Source: Pirellulales bacterium | GTDB taxonomy: Bacteria; Planctomycetota; Planctomycetia; Pirellulales; Thermoguttaceae | Reading direction: 5' to 3' | DNA length: 48,837 bases | NCBI GenBank assembly: GCA_016935315.1 | Contig: JAFGRD010000003.1 | Location: forward strand, 1 to 48,837 | Shown: positions 2,575 to 7,623 of the stretch, in pieces | Position numbering within the stretch: position 1 is the stretch's first letter | Layout of the letters: every line of letters starts with the position of its first letter | Position numbers and translations under genes: made by a program | The notes under the pieces: generated by a model | Seen by the model: only the letters and a program-made list of their open reading frames with translations | Databases searched by the model: none | Told to the model about the DNA's origin: nothing

Positions 2575-4578
2575 TCAAATTCGGTCGAGCATGTCGATCC
2601 AGCGGGCCAGCTCGGCCAGTTCCTGATCGCGAAGCTGGCGGGTGTCTTCAGCGAGACCCTTGACCGTCACGGGGATCTTCGCGCTGCGCAGGCGGGCAAT
2701 CCCCCCCTTGATCTGCTTGGCATGACGAGATCCTTCGCGCACCGCCGCGTATACGGCCATGCGGTGCAGTGGATCGACTTGAAGGGGAAGGCTGCCCGGC
2801 GGACCGTCGATAGCTACCACCGCGCGAGCCAACTCGCGATTACGTGCGGCGGCGGCAAAAGCCAATGTGCCGCCGCTCTCGTGCCCCAGCAGCACGACTC
2901 GCGAGGAATCGACGGCGTGGGACGAGGAGATTTCGTCGAGGAACCTGCCGACCGTTGTCGCATCGTCGGGCCGCCACGGCTGGGCGTCGACCGTCTTGAT
3001 GGCCAGCAGCACCAGGTCGTGGCGGTCGCAGTGCGGCTTCCATCGGGTCAGCAACTCCGGCCAGTCGAAGTCTCCGGAGGCGGTCAGAAGGACGACCACG
3101 CCGTGCGGCAGAGCCGACGCATAGGCCTCCGGAACGTACGCCCACGCGTCGTTTTTCAACTCGGCAATCTTCAGTCTTATCGTGCCGACGGCGGGGCGGT
3201 CTTCCTCACCGGCAACGACTCCGTGGGCCGGCGGGAGTTCGGCCGGGGGCAAGTCCTCCGGAAGCCGGCCAAGCGTCAGCTTCACGTTCCTGGGCTGACC
3301 ATCGCGATGGACTTCCAGTTCCACGTCTTCGTCGGGTTGGAACGTCGCCAGGCGTTGCAGCAGCGTGTCACGGTTCTCGATCGGCTTTCCCTCGAGCGAA
3401 ACGAGCACATCGCCCGACTCGATCCCGGCGCGGGCCGCCGGGCTGTCGGGATAGACGTAGCGGATCGCGACGACCGATTCGCCACCGGGGATCCGCATCG
3501 GCAGCACGCCCAGAAAGGGATGCGCGTAGGGCTGGAGTTCGGCAACCAGTTCCACTTCCGTTTCGATCCGCTTCTGTTCGCGCACCACAACCATCGAGAC
3601 TCTCGCCCCGGCGTAGCGACGGCTGAGTTCCGCCTTGACTCCGGCAGCCCGTACGATCGGCCGACCGGCCATTTCAACGATCCGGTCGCCGGCTTTCAGG
3701 CCGGCCTTGGCGGCGGGCGAGTTGGGGTGGCAGGCAGTGATGACCGGCTCGCCGATAACCGGATTTCGCCCCTGGAGGCTGATACCGATCACACCCGGAT
3801 GCAGATCCTCGCCCTGCTTGAGTCGGGGCAAGACGCTCATGATATGCTCTGCGTCGACGGCAAAACCGATGCCCGAGTCGTACCATTGGTAGCCCGCGAG
3901 ATCCGCGTCCGACTGCGGCGAAAGGGGCACGAGCACGCCCAGCACGCGGCCCCGCACGTCGACCAACGGCCCGCCGTAGTTGTTGGGCGAGACGGCAGCG
4001 TCGGTCTGGATCGCCTTGCCCCAGATTCGCCTCAGGGCGCTGATGATGCCAACCGACATATTGGGCCGGCTGCCTTCAAAAGTCCGTCCGACAGCGATGG
4101 CCCATTGGCCGACGCGCATCTCCGCGACGGGCGCGACCTCCGGTACCGGCAGCGGCCGGCCCGCGTCGATTTTCAGCAAGACCAGCTTGCGGCTGTGGTC
4201 GGTCCCCACCACGGTCGCCGGCTTCAGCGATCCGTCAGGGAGTCGAACCAGAATCGAAGCGGGAAGATGAAGGAAACTGAACGCGCTGGAAATGATGTAG
4301 CCTTCCCGGTCGACAATCAGGCCCGTGGTCGGACCGCTGCCGAAGAGCACATCGCCGACGCGCTCCATTCCGCCCACCGTTTCGATGCGCACAACCGACG
4401 GGGCGACACGGTCGACCGCTGCCTGGACGGCGTTCTGCTCGAGCAGGTCGACGTCGGCGATGGGTTCGCCGGACGTGGCGGGGTCCGCCACCACGAGGCA
4501 GCCCAGCAGGGTTCCCAGCATCGTTGCCGAACGGGCAATGCCCCGGCGCGTCCGAAAACAGGCATTTGTCGCGATCAC
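2575..4578 (-). CDS. Catalytically dead HtrA-like protein with two PDZ domains and a hydrolase-like C-terminus
   Basis: 667 aa. A hydrophobic N-terminal segment (about residues 19-32) suggests export. Residues 50-235 align with the trypsin-like fold of HtrA/DegP proteins, but all three catalytic positions are changed: Phe100 for His (YIISSAFSF), Lys131 for Asp (DHSRKLVLLKI) and Tyr201 for Ser (SPNNYGGPL). Two PDZ domains follow (about 255-345 and 350-440). Residues about 470-667 resemble an alpha/beta hydrolase with a nucleophile elbow GHESGG (Ser568), but I see no obvious catalytic His near the end. The start is GTG at 4578, overlapping the previous stop as GTGA, with GAGGAAG upstream. It is the last gene of the operon. 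I infer a binding or scaffolding role in the periplasm, not proteolysis. Confidence 0.85.
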   Translation of the reverse strand: MIATNACFRTRRGIARSATMLGTLLGCLVVADPATSGEPIADVDLLEQNAVQAAVDRVAPSVVRIETVGGMERVGDVLFGSGPTTGLIVDREGYIISSAFSFLHLPASILVRLPDGSLKPATVVGTDHSRKLVLLKIDAGRPLPVPEVAPVAEMRVGQWAIAVGRTFEGSRPNMSVGIISALRRIWGKAIQTDAAVSPNNYGGPLVDVRGRVLGVLVPLSPQSDADLAGYQWYDSGIGFAVDAEHIMSVLPRLKQGEDLHPGVIGISLQGRNPVIGEPVITACHPNSPAAKAGLKAGDRIVEMAGRPIVRAAGVKAELSRRYAGARVSMVVVREQKRIETEVELVAELQPYAHPFLGVLPMRIPGGESVVAIRYVYPDSPAARAGIESGDVLVSLEGKPIENRDTLLQRLATFQPDEDVELEVHRDGQPRNVKLTLGRLPEDLPPAELPPAHGVVAGEEDRPAVGTIRLKIAELKNDAWAYVPEAYASALPHGVVVLLTASGDFDWPELLTRWKPHCDRHDLVLLAIKTVDAQPWRPDDATTVGRFLDEISSSHAVDSSRVVLLGHESGGTLAFAAAARNRELARAVVAIDGPPGSLPLQVDPLHRMAVYAAVREGSRHAKQIKGGIARLRSAKIPVTVKGLAEDTRQLRDQELAELARWIDMLDRI

Positions 4579-5703: not shown

Positions 5704-7623
5704 TTAGTCCGTCCCACCATCGTTCTCGCTTTCTCTCCCGCCTTCCTTGACAGCTTCCTTCTGAGATCCTGTATCCTCTTTGAACCGACACTGCTGCAGA
5801 AGGAACACACCGTAGAGATCGTCGCCGAGGCGAACTTCCATCCGCCCGGGAAGGAAGCGACCGTCGACTTGGTGATACTCGGAGAAGTAGATCTCGCACG
5901 GATCGACGTCCTCCTCGGGAAACACCTCAACGGCCAGCAAATGGCCCTCGACCGGATCGAAGAGGAAGTGGCACTCGACCCCCTTGTATAGTCCGACCAG
6001 AGCGTCCACCGTCTCCTGTCGGGCGGGCAAGGGAAGTGTGCCGAGGTACGTGACGTCACCGAACTGCTCGGGGCCTGTGACGGCCAGGCGTCGCCAGAGG
6101 TACAGCGCCGGCAATAAGCCACCGCTCTGAGGCGGGGCCAACGACGCACCGAAATCGTCGGTGGCGATCCATTTCGCCTCACCGCCCGGCAAGGCAAAAC
6201 GCCCCCCCGTGTCGGCCAGCTCGAACTGGAATGCCTCGCTGCCTTCCAACTCGCCGGCAAGTGTCCAGAGGCCGTCCATCGCGCTGAAGTCGCCGCGGGC
6301 CGTCCACGCCTTCCACACACGGTCGCGGTTGAGTCTGTTGAAGTAGTAGTTGGCGAAACCCCGCCGGGCCTCGAAGTGTTGTTTGACGATTTCAGCCATG
6401 GGGGGCTCGGTGCGAGGTGCCCTCATCTGCGGCTGACCGGGAAGCGGCGTGGGAATATCGATCTTGCGTGACCCATCGGGATGGGGCCCTTCGTCGGGGC
6501 TTGGGGGCTCGCGCGGGCCGGGCTCGTCGTCGGGATCGGGCTCCTTGTCGGGTTCGGGAATGGGCATGGGCAGATCCCGCGGGCGACCCGCCGCCTTTTC
6601 CAGCAACTCCTCCACCGCGTGCAGCCCGCGCAGCCGAACCATCGCGTCATATCGCTGTCCCCCGCGGCGAAAACTCAGGGGGATACGCCATCCCTTGGGG
6701 TAAATGCCCAGAACATTCTTGAACCCGTTGGGGGTCGTGATACGGCGGCCGCCGAGGCTGACGATTTCGTCGTCGTAGCGGAGCCCCCGGCGGTAGGCGT
6801 CCGACTGCTCGAGGATGTTCTCGACGACGACGCGGCCCACTTCATCAAAGCCGACCTGGACTCCCAGCGTGGCGTGGTCAACGATGCGTCCACTGTGGAG
6901 GTAGCCCAGGAAGTTGCGGATCTGGTTGATCGAGATCGCGTAGGCGACGCCCACGTTGACCCGGCCACGCTTTTCGAACGAGCCGCGGCCGTTGATGCCG
7001 ATCAGCCGTCCGGCGGCATCAAACAGCGGTCCGCCCGAGTTGCCGGGGTTGATCGACGCGTCGGTTTGAATGCAGTCGCAGTACTCCAGGAGTGTTCCGG
7101 AAGGGTATTGGTAGCGGTGGACGCCGGAAACGATCCCATAGGTGGCCGTCGGCCAGAAATCGGTCGCCAGCAAAAAGGGATTGCCCATGGCAAAACACCA
7201 GTCGCCCACGGCAACGTGATCGCTATCGGCCAGTTCGGCATGCGGGAAGTCGTCGCGCCCGAACAGTTTGATCAGGGCTACGTCGCCGGTGGGATCGACG
7301 CCGACAATCACCGCGTCGTAGAGTTCGCCGTCGGCCATGCCGCATTTCAGGGCATCGCCGCACGGCTTGACGACGTGGAAATTGGTCAGGGCGTAGCCGT
7401 CTGCCGAGATGACCACGCCCGAGCCGCCGCCCGAGCCGCTGGGCGAAAAGATGCCCAGGACCGAATCCTTGGCTCGGTCCATCACGGCGATTCGCTCGGC
7501 CTGGGCCCGGAGCACGGCGGAGTCTACCAGTGGGGGTGGTGTTGCGGTCGTCGGGGTATCGGCTGGCACGGCCCGCGATCCCGCCAACAAGGTGGCAGCG
7601 GCAAGGACAACCAGACGCTTCAT
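5704..7623 (-). CDS. Secreted HtrA/DegP-like serine protease with PDZ domain
   Basis: 639 aa with a signal peptide (residues 1-20). This is the only one of the three tandem HtrA-like proteins with a full catalytic triad: His83 (ALTNFHVV), Asp114 (GDVALIK) and Ser196 (NPGNSGGPL). A PDZ domain follows (about 245-345), then a Pro/Asp/Glu-rich linker (about 350-400). The C-terminal domain of about 230 aa is one I do not recognise; it is rich in beta strands and might bind lipid or protein. The far C-terminus is charged and probably disordered. Family knowledge: HtrA proteases degrade or refold damaged periplasmic proteins. The ATG overlaps the stop of the NPCBM gene (ATGA). It is probably the catalytic member of a cassette with its two dead neighbours. 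Confidence 0.9.
   Translation of the reverse strand: MKRLVVLAAATLLAGSRAVPADTPTTATPPPLVDSAVLRAQAERIAVMDRAKDSVLGIFSPSGSGGGSGVVISADGYALTNFHVVKPCGDALKCGMADGELYDAVIVGVDPTGDVALIKLFGRDDFPHAELADSDHVAVGDWCFAMGNPFLLATDFWPTATYGIVSGVHRYQYPSGTLLEYCDCIQTDASINPGNSGGPLFDAAGRLIGINGRGSFEKRGRVNVGVAYAISINQIRNFLGYLHSGRIVDHATLGVQVGFDEVGRVVVENILEQSDAYRRGLRYDDEIVSLGGRRITTPNGFKNVLGIYPKGWRIPLSFRRGGQRYDAMVRLRGLHAVEELLEKAAGRPRDLPMPIPEPDKEPDPDDEPGPREPPSPDEGPHPDGSRKIDIPTPLPGQPQMRAPRTEPPMAEIVKQHFEARRGFANYYFNRLNRDRVWKAWTARGDFSAMDGLWTLAGELEGSEAFQFELADTGGRFALPGGEAKWIATDDFGASLAPPQSGGLLPALYLWRRLAVTGPEQFGDVTYLGTLPLPARQETVDALVGLYKGVECHFLFDPVEGHLLAVEVFPEEDVDPCEIYFSEYHQVDGRFLPGRMEVRLGDDLYGVFLLQQCRFKEDTGSQKEAVKEGGRESENDGGTD

Follow-up and report, generated by a model that had tools for sequence, protein, structure and literature searches.

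Three HtrA-like genes lie in tandem on contig JAFGRD010000003.1 (C77 in our numbering) of a Pirellulales bacterium of the family Thermoguttaceae, in a window, by which we mean the whole stretch of 48,837 nucleotides that was analysed. Only the first of them, H1, encodes a protein with a complete catalytic triad; the second and the third, H2 and H3, have lost theirs. Why should two dead proteases be maintained beside a live one? Because both are kept with the live enzyme, apparently in an all-or-none manner, we consider them, with some reserve, to be working parts of one protease machine. The host genome (7.1 Mb in 172 contigs) contains 15 Trypsin_2 places, 14 of them over the cut-off, so that H1, H2 and H3 are three among many.

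Catalytic triads in the window and in other planctomycetes

An initial annotation of the locus had described three tandem HtrA-like genes with PDZ domains, one triad being intact and two lost, a 4-nt overlap between the two dead copies, and a place at the end of a MoxR/VWA operon. This description held. All three proteins, encoded on the minus strand, matched Trypsin_2 above the Pfam gathering score of 27.6 bits (114.5, 72 and 76.8 bits for H1, H2 and H3), the overlap was found again, and Pfam matches of the neighbours placed the trio at the end of a MoxR/VWA gene run (Table 1). PDZ domains scored over the cut-off in H2 and H3 and fell short of it in H1, where PDZ_2 reached 23.7 bits for a cut-off of 27. 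At a threshold of 0.001, Trypsin_2 matched 77 of 77 H3 and 79 of 79 H2 proteins, and PDZ_2 matched 77 of 77 and 77 of 79, respectively. The triad of H1 consists of His83 (7375-7377), Asp114 (7282-7284) and Ser196 (7036-7038). The same slots are occupied in H2 by Ser83 (5391-5393), Glu113 (5301-5303) and Ala198 (5046-5048), with the oxyanion glycine kept, and in H3 by Phe100 (4279-4281), Lys131 (4186-4188) and Tyr201 (3976-3978), with a residue other than glycine in the oxyanion slot. Judged from their sequences, H2 and H3 are non-peptidase homologues of HtrA/peptidase family S1C.

None of the three proteins reached the NCBIfam cut-off for degP_htrA_DO (TIGR02037, 416.2 bits), the scores being 205.8, 116.1 and 198.5 bits for H1, H2 and H3. 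They also remained below the equivalog thresholds, both over 800, of the MamE (110.3, 50.8 and 119.3 bits) and MamO (55.8, 34.3 and 32.5 bits) models. H1 ends in a C-terminal extension of about 300 amino acids without Pfam match. Its protease domain has two conserved cysteines (alignment columns 49 and 139, in 171 and 194 of 199 domains), which perhaps form a disulfide; no conserved-cysteine column comparable to these was seen in the H2 or H3 alignments.

A search for H3 in 60 genomes (the host and 59 of its family and order) gave a clear H3, on reading of the E-values, in 53 of them, and matches at ordinary HtrA scores only in the other 7. From 52 of the 53 positive genomes 54 stretches were drawn. 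The GTDB genome collection supplied at least 80 named loci (Pirellulales, Thermoguttaceae and Planctomycetota, with Blastopirellula marina DSM 3645 among them). Sampling of the class and of the phylum added 40 stretches, and the class by itself another 80. Removal of 26 duplicate loci, of two ordinary HtrA loci (L198 and L199) and of one locus without protease domain (L085) left 226 non-redundant trio-type loci (the window plus 53, 63, 38 and 71 by source), 25 of which are outside the class; 184 are complete clusters with H1, H2 and H3. The counting unit is the locus, not the genome, genomes G004 and G044 contributing two each, and genome searches were confined to the Planctomycetota. Of 297 class genomes, 247 were matched by an H2 profile at 1e-30, although three genomes of family f21 (1e-31 to 1e-33) are at background level. 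In a phylum sample of 246 genomes, 25 'same phylum' genomes scored at least 150 bits and the next ones at most 129; as about 230 of the 246 are outside the class, the trio is patchy there. It is not a local feature, however, and is spread across the Planctomycetota.

The triad states were remarkably uniform in this collection. All 196 fully readable H1 domains had His-Asp-Ser, the 3 others among the 199 being incomplete. Of 217 H2 domains, 154 had zero triad residues, 63 had one and none had more. Their Ser slot was Ala in 157, Gly in 18, Gln in 13, Pro in 11 and Ser in 2, and their His slot was Ser in 195 and His in a single one. Among 206 H3 domains, the Ser slot was Tyr in 205 and Val in one, the His slot was Phe in 162 and never His, the Asp slot was Asp in 3, and again more than one triad residue was never found together. 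The oxyanion glycine was present in 216 of 217 H2 and in 3 of 206 H3 domains. Since the same losses recur in 217 H2 and 206 H3 domains, they go beyond chance, and no orthologue of either protein had an intact triad. The H3 with Val in the Ser slot belongs to locus L073, one of the two sets (with L092) carried by genome G044. The genome searches read through stops, and a stop was present inside some of their matches; no dedicated search for frameshifted copies was made.

A repaired active site made of other residues was also considered for H2 and H3, and was rejected because column counts did not point to a convincing group of residues. In H3 histidine is not conserved, its best column reaching 68 of 206, and a histidine column of H2 (173 of 217) is outside the catalytic slot. 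As far as conserved columns can tell, neither protein appears to have rebuilt a triad.

Age, selection and fold of the dead copies

A tree was built with 85 protease domains of 27 chosen loci, several of which are from beyond the class, and 4 other HtrAs; H1, H2 and H3 each formed one clade in it (support 100/99, 100/98 and 100/99). One old triad loss in each dead line is therefore the simplest reading, and both losses look old. The ratio of non-synonymous to synonymous substitution rates (dN/dS) was then estimated for pairs by NG86, the pairs being limited to those with 0 < dS < 3. Within genera, the medians of three genera ranged from 0.009 to 0.037 for H1 and from 0.028 to 0.046 for H2; H3, with two genera, gave 0.022 and 0.099. 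The pairs used for H1, H2 and H3 were 10, 10 and 9 of 10 in genus g63, and 4, 3 and 4 of 6 in g100; in g160 they were 11 (H1) and 14 (H2) of 21, with one H3 copy only and hence no H3 value. In the wider set of the host's own family (55 of 55 pairs each), medians were 0.13, 0.18 and 0.22 for H1, H2 and H3. Because dS within genera is high (1.3-2.1) these values are rough, yet they are far below 1 for the dead domains as for the live one.

AlphaFold2 models of H2 (79 alignment rows) and H3 (77 rows) were predicted with confidence as HtrA folds, with a predicted local distance difference test (pLDDT) of 87.2 and a predicted template modelling score (pTM) of 0.75 for H2, and of 91.7 and 0.86 for H3. 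Each was modelled singly, because in three test alignments built on a natural H1-H2 fusion (L171, see below) all H2 rows fell on the H1 half. The best PDB matches of both were DegQ, DegP and DegS. The top VIA Z was 26.2 for H2, with a root-mean-square deviation (rmsd) of 13.3 over 281 residues, and 27.7 for H3, with an rmsd of 7.7 over 362; rmsd is large where an alignment spans both the protease and the PDZ domains. With the protease domain of MamO (5hma), the H2 model gave a Z of 22.7 (rmsd 2.4, 180 aligned). The proposal in the initial annotation that the folds are under selection while catalysis is lost is thus supported by the dN/dS values, the triad states and the predicted folds.

H3 has in addition a long tail in 154 of 206 cases. 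This tail tentatively has an alpha/beta-hydrolase fold: its model alternates strands with helices, and Pfam matches to alpha/beta hydrolase families were weak, at most 4 of 77 members matching any one family at 0.001. Fold searches were filled by HtrA chains, and no alpha/beta hydrolase match of the H3 C-terminus reached E 0.01 in the PDB search. TAL-effector matches found there were many low-scoring stretches, which we took as chance. A G-x-S-x-G nucleophile motif and a catalytic His are not conserved among the 154 tails. The nucleophile slot (567) was Gln in 36, Gly in 36 and Glu in 34 (106 of 154 together), so that the tail looks like a second dead enzyme. Its best histidine column (95 of 154, position 499) is near the start of the domain, and none is conserved near its end.

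Linkage of the three genes and the run that they close

In every one of the 184 complete clusters the three genes share a strand and follow one another as H1, H2 and H3. The next gene was in the frame of a 4-nt overlap in 116 of 194 H1/H2 pairs and 117 of 197 H2/H3 pairs, for one third expected by chance. A start codon was found at the 4-nt register itself in 85 and 82 of these pairs, respectively, the remaining pairs being spaced otherwise.

H1 and H2 were in a single open frame at seven loci, namely L080 (the same contig as L171), L181, L190, L197, L261, L293 and L294. A tree of 102 H1 domains was built with the 7 fused ones and 95 taken at random among 194 unfused, and includes some long branches. 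The fused state required 6 changes on it, which may include losses, at least 4 being forced by well-supported branches. A hydrophobic segment (best 12-mer at least 1.7) preceded 194 of 199 unfused H2 domains, with a median of 2.49, and 0 of 7 fused ones at the same threshold (0.40-1.54). The lack of a second export signal in fused H2 is as expected of one exported chain. From these fusions we infer a contact between H1 and H2. They also offer natural single-chain pairs of a live and a dead HtrA, directly usable as constructs in structural work.

Co-retention was analysed next. In 18 of 18 genomes with an H2 locus lacking one or more partners, H3 was present elsewhere or nearby, and H1 was found in 13 of 13 searched genomes with incomplete loci; at some of these loci the genes were on separate contigs or just beyond the fetched stretch (G195 and G328, for example). 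H2 did not rise above background in 26 genomes, 16 of which are of family f21; their H3 scores stayed within the ordinary HtrA background, at most 191 bits versus at least 554 in three controls. No clear H1 was detected in the 20 of these genomes that were searched for it, the best E-value being 1.2e-45 or weaker versus 1.7e-125 or stronger in five controls. The match at 1.2e-45, in G316, is ambiguous. A protein of this genome, which has neither H2 nor H3, is 43% identical to H1 over some 260 residues (G316:C316:7574-8359), and may be a relic of the live subunit or a close paralogue of it. Other Planctomycetota have two adjacent HtrA-like genes (G344:C394, G428:C140, G487:C356, G523:C21 and G372:C184).

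In the window, the trio closes a minus-strand run that goes from MoxR through DUF58, BatA/VWA, the weak VWA, G7, G6 and G5 to NPCBM (Table 1). At least one of G5, G6 and NPCBM was beside the trio in 20 of the 25 loci outside the class. Relatives of G12, the gene adjoining MoxR, were found next to H3, downstream of it, in several such loci (L178, L179, L181, L184, L186, L189, L193 and L303). The window also encodes two very large proteins with beta-propeller matches of PQQ/BamB type, at 22016-26995 and 35996-39829. The former, which closely precedes the cluster at its MoxR end, has TPR matches too; the fetched loci, of which few extend that far, yielded no relative of it.

Table 1. Features of the window around the HtrA-like trio (H2 start taken at ATG 5639; the mechanical open reading frame begins further upstream)
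Feature	Position	Strand	Remarks
H1	5704..7623	minus	HtrA protease, export-type N-terminus, triad intact, weak PDZ, C-terminal extension
H2	4575..5639	minus	Dead HtrA-PDZ protein
H3	2575..4578	minus	Dead HtrA, two PDZ domains, putative C-terminal alpha/beta-hydrolase-like region
H3 C-terminal region, alpha/beta-hydrolase-like (tentative)	2578..3186	minus	About residues 465-667; nucleophile slot Glu567
GTGA overlap, H2 stop/H3 start, 4 nt	4575..4578	minus	
NPCBM-domain protein	7620..8807	minus	Immediately upstream of H1; Pfam NPCBM 87.6 bits; conserved neighbour
G5	8870..9928	minus	Conserved, without Pfam match
G6	9925..11685	minus	Conserved, without Pfam match; charged, Gln-rich by eye
G7	11688..14108	minus	Conserved, without Pfam match; membrane-type by eye
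VWA-like protein	14116..16749	minus	VWA 20.4 bits, under cut-off 23.8; order conserved
BatA N-terminal/VWA protein	16638..18863	minus	Pfam BatA 53.6 bits, VWA_2 27.8 bits (cut-off 27)
DUF58 protein	18877..19782	minus	Pfam 167.9 bits
MoxR-type AAA+ ATPase	19779..20834	minus	AAA_3 212.6, AAA_lid_2 69.7, bpMoxR 39.4 bits (cut-off 27)
G12	20857..21933	minus	Adjoins MoxR; weak squalene-cyclase-like match

Possible functions of the dead copies

HtrA proteases are known as homo-oligomers, the trimer being their basic unit. DegP, DegQ and DegS, which are active homo-oligomers, resemble the trio in joining a protease to PDZ domains and are what H2 and H3 match best in both sequence and fold; the trio differs from them in that two of its three paralogues are without triad. 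Chains of plant Deg5 and Deg8 were also among the fold matches. These are different HtrA proteins thought to share one hetero-oligomer, and both have the triad. Proteolytic oligomers made of active and inactive paralogues are found in ClpP/ClpR rings, which have an unrelated fold, are cytosolic and are fed by AAA+ proteins.

The MamE/MamO pair is like the trio in that a live HtrA and a dead trypsin-like relative are in one gene set, although with one dead partner where there are two here. According to passages of PMC4794232, MamE, the active HtrA, and MamO, its inactive relative, are both required for a proteolysis that depends on the MamE triad alone, so that a live HtrA is activated by an inactive relative. 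Passages of PMC7159879 describe MoxR-vWA ternary systems with inactive trypsin domains, planctomycetes among their hosts and a proposed role in conflicts. MoxR and vWA genes occur in them, as in the present cluster, together with domains of the trypsin fold, of which many are inactive. There, however, the inactive domains are variable effector parts of the vWA protein, whereas here they belong to separate PDZ proteins in a fixed order. In subsystem 4 of those systems a beta-propeller is fused to the vWA protein; Pfam matched neither a beta-propeller nor a trypsin domain in either VWA protein of the window, and the PQQ/TPR protein at 22016-26995 is a separate one. VMAP, iSTAND and FtsH, the third components of subsystems 1-3, were absent from the Pfam matches of the scanned neighbours, where they were not searched with their own models. 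A survey of microbial PDZ proteins reports that planctomycetes have many of them (PMC6411480); the word 'inactive' is absent from the available main text of that paper, as are HtrA and MoxR from that of PMC10632474. Our literature search (open-licence PMC papers, supplements excluded) returned no description of the trio, and no functional account of the planctomycete MoxR/DUF58/VWA/NPCBM cluster as such. Pseudoproteases kept with a live HtrA are already known in kind, and this trio is a new variant.

The explanation that we favour, as probable but far from assured, is that H1, H2 and H3 are dedicated parts of one exported HtrA machine, with H1 as the sole catalytic part and H2 and H3 as non-catalytic partners. 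The machine would be periplasmic or at the surface, export being suggested by the hydrophobic N-termini. H2 and H3 would be old pseudoproteases retained by selection in this partner role. They would most likely bind H1 via the surfaces by which HtrA folds oligomerise, and may recruit the substrate and set the timing of cleavage by H1 through their PDZ domains and altered pockets, possibly for envelope quality control together with the MoxR/VWA genes. The complex of dead and live copies suggested in the initial annotation receives indirect support from the H1-H2 fusions, the gene order and overlaps, and co-retention.

Several observations weigh against a single machine. Coupling analysis of the 184 triples gave no convincing signal of an interface between H1, H2 and H3: the top z was 22.1 within proteins versus 9.1 between them, and inter-protein couplings were about twofold over a local-shuffle null, a statistic from which phylogeny was not removed. 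No fusion involves H3, so that what links it to H1 is gene order, overlap and co-retention. In G078, assembled as one contig of 6.76 Mb, the genes lie at 3.73 (H2), 4.06 (H1) and 6.61 Mb (H3), and a like arrangement is seen in G182. Strict co-retention is contradicted by G515, where an H3-type match scores 309.8 bits while H2 reaches no more than 112. The dead domains evolve faster than the live one, as mean pairwise identity over the 184 triples (computed on a subset of row pairs) was 0.52 for H2 and 0.53 for H3 versus 0.69 for H1, and the Asp slot of H2 has stayed acidic in 176 of 217 domains (Glu 116, Asp 60). As to the MamE precedent, the same passages of PMC4794232 assign activation of MamE to the TauE-like domain of MamO rather than to its dead protease domain, and report that no physical interaction between MamE and MamO was detected.

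Alternatively, it may be that H2 and H3 act outside proteolysis, each as a receptor or scaffold for a ligand of its own, be it a peptide, a metal or a glycan. They would then work in parallel with H1 in one envelope pathway, without contact with it. The dead protease domain of MamO, which binds metal according to PMC4794232 in the passages cited, is a precedent, and the near-invariant Ser-slot tyrosine of H3, its other near-invariant residues and its frequent long tail would suit such a role, as would the ability of the trio genes to disperse yet stay retained. The scattered H1-H2 fusions and the fixed order argue nevertheless for a tie of at least H1 to H2, and we hold this alternative to be unlikely. 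A role of the dead copies as decoys or dominant-negative regulators, in an anti-parasite conflict system built on the MoxR-vWA pair, is quite improbable. The window MoxR does score over the bpMoxR cut-off of Pfam, but each dead domain stands in a protein of its own, which has an export-type N-terminus and PDZ and is not fused to VWA, and the domains are near-constant across the class, unlike variable effectors. Moreover, DUF58, HtrA and BatA are absent from the available main text of PMC7159879.

Could H2 or H3 still catalyse something with other residues? The oxyanion glycine of H2, its acidic Asp slot and its histidine column would speak for it. However, no H2 or H3 domain has more than one triad residue, serine is found in the Ser slot of just two H2 domains, and H3 is devoid of a conserved histidine and, with rare exceptions, of the oxyanion glycine; we consider residual catalysis very improbable. 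Ordinary decay, in which the tandem duplicates are heading for loss and are retained only through their position in the cluster, is hardly credible. The copies are indeed tandem paralogues in one cluster and less conserved than H1, but each dead protein forms one clade that joins loci of the class with loci from beyond it, with dN/dS far below 1 and a confidently predicted fold, and dead genes are kept after leaving the cluster.

A more specific form of the favoured explanation, an exported HtrA machine with H1 as its catalytic part, is possible although doubtful. It would be an obligate 1:1:1 H1-H2-H3 heterotrimer with one active site and two dead seats. H2 would be an activator tied to H1, and the near-invariant Tyr of H3 would plug its own pocket while the dead hydrolase-like domain binds clients or the envelope. 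The MoxR/VWA proteins would insert, gate or recycle the trimer.

If the machine exists as proposed, the trio would be a natural separation-of-function system for substrate recruitment and active-site switching by non-catalytic HtrA subunits. It would also offer a handle on a conserved planctomycete gene cluster, that of MoxR, DUF58, VWA and NPCBM.

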